DNA of 64,000 nucleotides from Epinephelus fuscoguttatus. Taxonomy: Eukaryota; Chordata; Actinopteri; Perciformes; Serranidae. Position numbers and translations under genes: made by a program. Shown piece by piece: positions 34,901-37,900 of the stretch. How positions within the stretch are numbered: the stretch's first letter is position 1; each line of letters opens with the position of its first letter. Below the pieces are notes generated by a model. It was given only the letters and a program-made list of their open reading frames with translations. It was not told the origin of the DNA and searched no databases. The stretch covers positions 21,750,537 through 21,814,536 of the forward strand of contig NC_064767.1 in NCBI RefSeq assembly GCF_011397635.1, written 5' to 3'.

Positions 34901-37900
34901 AAGACAATGCATGTAACAGGCAGAACTTAAAGGGAAATTTCGGTTTATTTCAACCTGTCTCCTATCGTCCTAAATTTGTTTAAAGTGACTAGTGACATAC
35001 AGATAATAGTTAGCATGTTAGCCGTTAGCCTAGATACAGCCGAAGCGTCAGACCTGTTTAAACGTAAGAGAACGGGCATCCCTTCAAGTGCAAAGTTAGT
35101 CCACTATAAACAAGCTTTTTTTCCACAAAGATCGCCTCATAAATGTCAGAGAACATATAGAAAACGACATGTAAACGTGTTATCTTACCTTACCGGTGTG
35201 CTGCCATGTTTGTTTACAATGTAGCTCTGCTTTCCAAAGCGCGGCCGAAATATCGCAAGAACAAGCAGCGATCTCATAGCGTGCCTGAACAAGCAGCAAC
35301 AGCTGGAAGGCAAAAACGGGCGGTCGCCTGAACAGAGGAGGAGGAGAGAGCGAGGCGCAACAGGTAACGTTAGGGGATGAGAGAGGAGGAATGGCTGCCA
35401 CAAGGCTTTAACTCTGGAGATTGGTGGTGTACCTGTGAATGCTGTGCCCCAGTGCCCACAGAAGAGGAATGCCTCTGTTGCAAGGAATGGGACCGGTTGC
35501 AGCCTTATTTTCAAGGTCTGGATGTGACCGAGGACGAGACACCTCCACCTGGAGTAACGTTAGTATCCAGCTGGGCTTAATTTAGAGCTGGCGAGATATA
35601 TTTCGGCCGCGCTTTGGAAAGCAGAGCTAGAGGGATAAACAAACATGGCACCACACCGGTAAGGTAAGACAACACGTTTACATGTCGTTTTCTATATGTT
35701 CTCTGACATTTATCCTAACGATATGAGGCGGTCTTTGTGGAAAAAAAGCTTGTTTAGTGGACTAACTTTGCACTTGAAGGGATGCCCATTCTCCTACGTT
35801 TTAACAGGTCTGACGCTTCGGCTGTATCTAGGCTAATGGCTAACATGCTAACTACTATCTGTATGTCACTAGTCACTTGAACCAAATTTAGGACGACAGG
35901 AGATGGGTTGAAATAAACCGAAATTTCCCTTTAACACGGTGGCCCAGAATGTCAACAACCAATGCACCCAGGGTACCTTGCATGTCATATGTGAATGTGG
36001 GAACCCAAAGTCAATATGTGCCGAGGTCGGAGTGAGAACGTGTTGCCAATGAAGATGTCTTGACCTGCTCCATGCTCCTGTGATGAAGCTTCGCACAACT
36101 CCAACCTATTTTCAGAGCAACAGCAAGTAATTTCTTAGGGTCGCTCAGGACTCAACAGGCTTCCTGAGTGGTGCTGTAATTTGTAGTATGTCTGAAAATG
36201 TTTCTGCTCCATCTGCCATCAATTGCTCTTTGTGAGGATGAAGTGTTGTAGAGGACAACTGCATTGCACTCAGGACGAATTGTGGCAGACTTATACGTAT
36301 ATTATTATATCTTTTCTTTTCATACAGCGAGTGAGCAAACTCTGACAGGTTGTGCATGAAGTGTCCCGATACTCTACTAGCAGCAACAACATGTAGGAAG
36401 CTTTTAAAACCCTGAGCCAGCGTAGGCACCGGCTTGCTGTTGCTCTGGAAACAAGTTGGAGGTGCGCAAAGCTTTGCCAAAATAGAACTAGGGTGAGCAG
36501 TTTTTTTCAAACACGCAAAACATGTTGCTGGGCCTATTCACTGACGCATGAAGCAGGTTCGGACAGTTTTATTTGGAGAAACTGAAATCTGAGGTTTGTT
36601 AGCTCTCTCTGTCACGTTATATCCACTTATAAGATAGAGGAGTACAAATCAACATCTACAGCAAACTTTGCATCAAGTCCATTCTGTGCCATTTACCTGT
36701 GTGTTGTCTGTCTGTGTGTATTTTTATGAGCCAACTGAGAGTAACTTGGTTTGTACTCAGAGGAAAAAATAATTGTCAGAAGCCCTCATTTGGTGTATCC
36801 CTAATGATTTTTTACCCGCTACCATGACTAAGATGAGCAGTTATGGATAATGAATAAATTAATGAATCATCGTTTCTAATGTGGAAGAGTAAAATCTAAT
36901 TTCATGGCCCACCTGAGGTTCTCTCCCCCCTCTGCGACTTCATGTTGTAGTCCTTCCTGCAGCCCTGCTACGTAGTCCTTCAGATGGGAGAGCTCCAAAA
37001 CCCGCCAGATCTCCTCGTCGCTGAATTTGTCAAATGGGTCCAGGTTCATCCTCAGGGTCCCGGAGAACAACACTGGGTCCTACACCCACGTGGTCGGATA
37101 CGTCAGTGCACCAATAAAAACTGAATGCTATTCTTGGCTTTGAGTTGTTGTTGTTGTGTGTACCTGTGGTATGATTGTGAGCCTGTTTCTGAGGTCGTGC
37201 AGGCCGATTGCGGAAATATCAACACCATCAATGAGGATGCGACCTTCGGCGGCTTCAATAATTCTAAACAGGCAGTTGGTCAGACTTGATTTCCCAGCTC
37301 CTGTGCGACCCACGATACCAATCTGATTGCAAGAAGAGACAGCACAAAGGGTAAAACATTTCAGCTGATTTATCTTCTAAAAAAGGTTTTATAGTCTTAG
37401 TCACTGATGTGTTTCTGCAGGTAAACAGACTGTCTGTATAAAAACAAAAACTCAAAGTGATATTGTCATTTGAAGCTTTTTCACACAGATAAATGCACAC
37501 CATCATAATGAAAGCTTTTAAACCAGCTGTCAGAATGCTGAATTGTGGTTAAAACTGAGATTAAATTCATATTCACAGAAACAGCAGCAGCATTTCTTTA
37601 GTGTGTCTGGCTGTAGCTGTAATTCCATCATAAAGCAAATCCATCAGTCTGAGACATGCTAGAGAGTGAAAGAAAAGAAGATACAACCTAAACTGTGTCT
37701 GAAGGATTAGTACTGTAAAGGCATTAGAGTTCCATAACATCAGAAGCTATGTTTTCTACCTGTCTGTGTTGTTGTCTGTACATGGCTTGTGCTGCAGCCC
37801 ATGTGCATGCTGCATAATAGTAAAAGGCTGACTGATCAGAGATTCGAGATTCATAAACAGAACATCCAGGAATAAATGAACAGGTCATTAATGCTGCAAA

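Follow-up and report, generated by a model that had tools for sequence, protein, structure and literature searches.

Kolobok DNA transposons have TTAA target site duplications and 5'-RR...YY-3' termini, unlike piggyBac (Kojima and Bao, 2022; PMC9587614). In the same work, the Kol0 lineage is reported to encode KolX, a protein similar to human P2X7 476-595, and both the P2X7 ballast and nanor are derived from KolX. Kolobok MITEs with AGGRR ends and TTAA have been described, as well as an AGGGGAAC-ended full-length copy (PMC6004289), while coral MITEs have been tied to piggyBac (PMC2872659). The P2X7 zinc-coordinating cysteine domain (ZCD) contains three cysteine clusters with 7-8 Cys (Rump et al., 2020; PMC7016195).

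Here we describe a 1000-bp element (34931-35930) of Epinephelus fuscoguttatus, which very probably belongs, as a non-autonomous member with long TIRs and a KolX fragment, to a family of Kolobok (Kol0-type) DNA transposons. It was distinguished within a stretch of 64,000 nucleotides, which was analysed as a whole and is referred to below as the window. The ends of the element fit the published Kolobok definition: TTAA lies directly on either side, and the termini are exact (AGGGAAATTTCGG...CCGAAATTTCCCT, i.e., AGGG...CCCT, or AGGGAA...TTCCCT in extended form), with AG...CT as the 5'-RR...YY-3' pair. The features of the locus are given in Table 1.

Table 1. Features of the Kolobok-type element and its host intron (positions in the window)
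Feature	Position	Strand	Remarks
abcc2 intron with the element	~34249-36914	-	approximate edges, read from protein matches to the nucleotide-binding-domain exons on either side
Left target site duplication, TTAA	34927-34930	.	exact flank
Left inverted arm (terminal inverted repeat), begins AGGGAAATTTCGG	34931-35253	+	arm alignment
Loop (internal region), 344 bp	35254-35597	.	between the arms
67-codon ATG-to-stop frame as reported	35377-35580	+	copy-specific, not a conserved gene
ATG GCT GCC, possible inner KolX start	35391-35411	+	majority frame leads into the cysteine motif
KolX/P2X7-ZCD-type cysteine frame DWWCTCECC...PPP, 44 codons	35419-35550	+	common to siblings; limited to the first cluster and the CC of the second
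Right inverted arm	35598-35930	-	arm alignment
Right target site duplication, TTAA	35931-35934	.	exact flank

The two arms share 91% identity over 335 columns (gaps counted), and the 24-bp end (TTAA plus 20 nucleotides, up to 3 mismatches) is found at two places in the window, while 100 shuffles contain none. The foldback of ~1 kb with ~340-bp arms and TTAA ends, proposed in a first-pass annotation of this DNA, is therefore real, with arms of ~330 bp and exact TTAA; its loop measures 344 bp instead of the 330 bp given earlier. Drosophila foldback (FB) elements also have long, foldable inverted arms, but these are composed of short tandem repeats, whereas no direct-repeat family of at least 12 nt with two copies was detected inside the arms described here, and the ends are of the Kolobok type. 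No convincing further copy of the element is present in the 64-kb window. The observed/expected CpG ratio of the element is 0.79, compared with 0.36 for the window, a difference in composition that fits a recent arrival.

The element is located within an intron of abcc2, a gene encoded on the minus strand, and the plus-strand cysteine frame is antisense to it. The minus-strand frames flanking the element match Pfam ABC transporter models, and three joined exon pieces gave ABCC2 as the best PDB match (8rq3, E 4e-101), above ABCC1 and ABCC3. These matches bear out the position inside abcc2 that had been assigned earlier, the exons on either side lying at 37079 and ~34248, with edges read from the protein matches. 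The abcc2 span also contains a fragment of a piggyBac-type transposase (DDE_Tnp_1_7, E 3e-8; 45578-45832, minus strand). A dispersed inverted pair of 135 bp (23087-23221 and 58814-58948; 85% identity) probably represents two copies of another repeat.

The genome of E. fuscoguttatus (1.05 Gb in 26 contigs) contains 1,411 exact occurrences of the 29-bp end (TTAA plus 25 nucleotides), 712 forward and 699 reverse, and none of its reversed control. Among the first 100 places listed, neighbouring forward and reverse ends less than 3 kb apart enclose 631-2257 bp, both TTAA included. A DNA search, in which the best 40 of 1,845 candidates were scored, produced 125 matching pieces belonging to ~40 copies, mostly of 87-95% identity. 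The 40 places retrieved comprise the window copy (L048) and 39 siblings, 32 of them near full length (at least 980 bp aligned); TTAA is found directly on both sides of 26 of these 32, and also at the right ends of L025 and L032, both trimmed there by 2 bp. This high copy number, together with independent insertions into TTAA, confirms the earlier view of the element as mobile. In the majority sequence of the 40 copies the arms differ at only 4 of 332 positions, compared with ~5% on average within single copies (33 measured), which implies that the source had near-perfect arms that decayed after insertion. Searches with the end and arm patterns against viral_contigs, with the end pattern against genome_contigs and with the element against phages found nothing.

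The closest described system, Kolobok Kol0 with KolX (PMC9587614), has in common with the element the TTAA and the 5'-RR...YY-3' termini, and its accessory gene of the P2X7-ballast type has a probable partial counterpart in the loop. The element differs in the lack of a transposase and in carrying only part of KolX, i.e., a partial KolX-type frame without the second half. No DDD/E transposase was matched by the element frames of 97, 124 and 68 codons, as is expected of a non-autonomous copy, and the element is classed no further than as a non-autonomous derivative; the best-scoring candidates of the own-genome search included no autonomous element with these ends. The non-autonomous Xenopus T2-MITE/XKol elements (PMC6004289) share the TTAA, the AGGRR ends and the prevalence in the genome, but reside in another host, whereas the element presented here has arms of ~330 bp and a residual KolX frame.

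Sequence comparisons indicate that the cysteine motif of the loop is truly, though only partially, related to the zinc-cysteine module of P2X7. The regular expression describing it has a single match in the six-frame translation of the window and none in 150 Markov-simulated windows of equal size. The check proposed in the first-pass annotation, a P2RX7_C (PF20478) search with the loop ORF, returned this family as the sole Pfam match, but with E 0.55 and 10.5 bits against a curated cut-off of 23.5; of 9 shuffles of the ORF, 7 were compared with Pfam, and none of these matched any model. For three sibling frames the E values are 0.0089, 0.0065 and 0.64 (the frames scoring best include upstream charged residues), and for a 92-residue frame started at the inner ATG 0.98; sibling frames reach 9.7-16.8 bits and one known copy 22.5. 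The same profile found 148 matches in the own genome, 25 of which stop at profile position 101, as does the similarity of the element. One of the 25 (C11:34687740) is a retrieved element copy, and other places ending there, which may or may not be element copies, reach 28.3 bits. When 20 KolX/P2X7-like proteins of this genome (taken from 23 candidates, p2rx7 of L049 included and L054, L058 and L059 left out by a frame filter) were combined into a profile, the loop ORF scored 17.7 bits, which only 2 of 20,000 composition-preserving shuffles equalled or exceeded. The residues W, C, C, E, C and C are invariant in an alignment of 10 proteins (two element frames, p2rx7 and seven KolX-like proteins), the matching part being short (~22 residues).

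Common to the element, the P2X7 ballast/ZCD and nanor (PMC7016195) are cluster 1 (WCxCx2C) and the CC of cluster 2, while the GxCITT of cluster 2 and the whole of cluster 3 are missing from the element, which does not encode a channel. The zinc-cysteine pattern recognized earlier is thus a true relative of the P2X7 type, though with 5 of the 7-8 conserved cysteines and without the complete set of three clusters. The loop ORF had no match in NCBIfam and two chance-like matches in PDB, neither of them P2X7, and of the 17 stretches of viral_contigs that fit the pattern of the KolX peptide none was confirmed as a relative.

The 67-codon ORF noted earlier is an accident of the window copy and not a gene, since its start codon is ATG in only 3 of the 40 copies (ACG in 29, ACA in 6, GCG in 1 and gapped in 1), its stop is present in a single copy (TAA in 1, TTA in 38 and TTG in 1) and its first ~12 codons are in a frame different from that of the majority. 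Two base pairs are missing before the motif in 11 copies, including that of the window, and five in one; due to this 2-bp deletion the ATG at 35391 of the window copy is followed by a stop after 6 codons. The majority open frame has 148 codons and crosses both edges of the loop.

Several other readings of the element were weighed. A piggyBac MITE would likewise target TTAA, the piggyBac-type transposase fragment mentioned above (45578-45832) is 10 kb distant, and KolX-like proteins are known from a few piggyBac families (PMC9587614); the 5'-AG...CT-3' ends, however, are of the Kolobok type, which that paper opposes to piggyBac, and make this origin highly improbable. Scarcely more credible is the capture of a P2X7-domain gene by the foldback, as the first-pass annotation had suggested; p2rx7 exon 13 or a nanor gene would be its source in the host. 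The genome does contain a true p2rx7 exon (L049, 216 bits; PDB P2X7 match E 6e-33), to which the motif is related (43% over 23 residues). When p2rx7 and the KolX-type proteins are compared, however, the motif is nearer to the KolX-type proteins of the own genome (up to 58% over 19 residues) and shares with them a PT that is absent from p2rx7. Capture is also not needed, since KolX has been published as a gene of the Kol0 Kolobok transposons (PMC9587614), and the domain would be Kolobok's own KolX-type accessory gene. As the published flow runs from Kolobok KolX to P2X7, a P2X7-like motif in a mobile element presents no puzzle. A longer KolX-like piece is in fact retained in a 2.3-kb sibling with the same ends (L091), whose frame reads MADFLPDF...RPYLFEPEYTDEE...WWCTCECC...CCKEWDRL up to a stop and includes GRPYLFEPEYTDEELREIEERMRREREAQQ between MADFLPDF and its last part. 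The N-terminus of this frame resembles the sequence upstream of a transposon-borne KolX, that of L081 (1 of 5000 shuffles as good), and shows no similarity to the KolX-type frame of L079 (3527 of 5000 shuffles as good). The alternative offered earlier, that the family routinely carries the domain, agrees with the protein search, in which all 150 scored places (the best 150 of 2,499) had E<1e-30.

A further possibility is that the KolX fragment is maintained as a small zinc-binding peptide helping or hindering transposition. The 44-codon cysteine core is intact in 35 of the 40 copies (2 frameshifts, 3 stops), and the frame is open in 142 of the 150 best protein-scored places, a set biased towards intact frames, the other 8 having stops. 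The core is the least divergent long part of the element (0.0188 per site and copy; arms, 0.030; preceding part of the loop, 0.045), its total variation is lowest at the second codon position (0.0199, 0.0103 and 0.0262), and it has 37 private changes where 50.6 are expected. When CpG, TG and CA sites are excluded, however, the values of the core (0.0177) and the left arm (0.0173) are level, and the part of the loop that follows the core has a still lower one (0.0112). Private changes are evenly spread over the codon positions (0.27, 0.30 and 0.27 per site): 25 are nonsynonymous, 11 synonymous and 1 a stop, against 34.8, 11.8 and 3.9 expected from the rest of the element, and for shared changes the numbers are 13, 5 and 1 against 14.2, 5.4 and 1.3. 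There is no excess of silent change in either class (P 0.23 and 0.56, respectively), and the low dN/dS asked about in the first-pass annotation is not seen for the core across the 40 copies. As for random stops in the frame, the core has largely stayed open, but the reported start and stop are not conserved. Maintenance of the fragment is, on balance, very unlikely.

The Kolobok reading, with KolX as the source of the domain, is supplemented by another repeat of the same genome. L081 and L082, which are 93% identical over 3.6 kb, contain the KolX-type exons CSCGNCEQMPTEPENICCMEI and SQYRYLAYRSFVSWCWGFLG...QYVGFRPVLG, with transposase-like exons on the opposite strand; the QPYMFEPES frame upstream was taken as the first KolX exon. 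In Pfam the transposase-like exons gave one match to an unrelated family (E 0.24) and otherwise none, and we take them to be Kolobok from the look of such proteins and from their place beside KolX. L081/L082 is a candidate Kol0 Kolobok of this genome, although no DNA is common to it and the element. Uninterrupted KolX/nanor-like frames of 145-192 codons occur in L050, L057, L060, L061, L062, L064, L065 and L066, among others, and are possibly domesticated or still mobile KolX genes.

A segment of ~155 bp, kept in L091, L094, L095 and L099, is absent from the 1000-bp form, which consequently appears to derive from a longer one by deletion; by eye, its junction shows short microhomology of the GAA type. 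We infer that an autonomous Kolobok lost its transposase and the 3' half of KolX through an internal deletion. The sites recognised by the transposase would lie in the inverted arms, which were nearly perfect in the source, and a Kolobok transposase acting in trans would have mobilized the copies by cut and paste; each copy presumably decayed afterwards with no visible constraint. In L092 and L093 the KolX piece is found in both inverted arms, which points to inverted duplication as a possible route to such arms. The element is an ordinary relic, yet a tidy illustration of the proposed transposon origin of the P2X7 tail. Since KolX remnants are abundant in this one vertebrate genome, a resemblance to the P2X7 tail in genomes of this kind should be read first as transposon.

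The abcc2 pre-mRNA may be able to fold the element into a hairpin of ~320 bp. The predicted folding energy of the abcc2-sense RNA of the element is -641.5 kcal/mol, compared with -266.6 (sd 7.4) for 20 shuffles, which shows a foldable hairpin in the model but says nothing of processing. The very long hairpin suggested earlier for the transcript is accordingly possible on paper, and the element is probably inert in the abcc2 intron. One could imagine a self-restraining family, in which dsRNA or small RNAs from the hairpins silence the autonomous Kolobok parents via KolX and the end sequences, and the hairpins with a KolX piece in both arms (L092 and L093) would suit it; we regard this as very improbable. 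Should small RNAs indeed arise from the hairpins, this family would offer a natural system in which to test self-silencing by transposons.

Short insertions were observed within the loop, in which GTAACGTTAG occurs twice (35365-35372 and 35555-35562). The first site is empty, i.e., a bare TA, in L094 and L099 and, judged by the reading frame, also in L038 and L043, and the second is empty in 4 of the 40 copies and in L091, L094 and L095. A third site (TGTACC to TGTAACGTTACC) is filled only in L092, L093, L096 and L100. From its sequence, the change of TA to TA-ACGT-TA, a 6-bp insertion, resembles the footprint left on excision by a transposon that targets TA, and these insertions are possibly more interesting than the KolX-bearing element itself. 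Among the literature matches listed for the 8-mer TAACGTTA, none concerns it by title. The window and the retrieved loci, 185 kb together, contain 22 occurrences of TAACGTTA outside the element, compared with 1.1 expected. It is the top TA-NNNN-TA word of the window and the retrieved loci and the most over-represented CpG 8-mer among those seen at least 10 times; its contexts vary, and a few of them recur.
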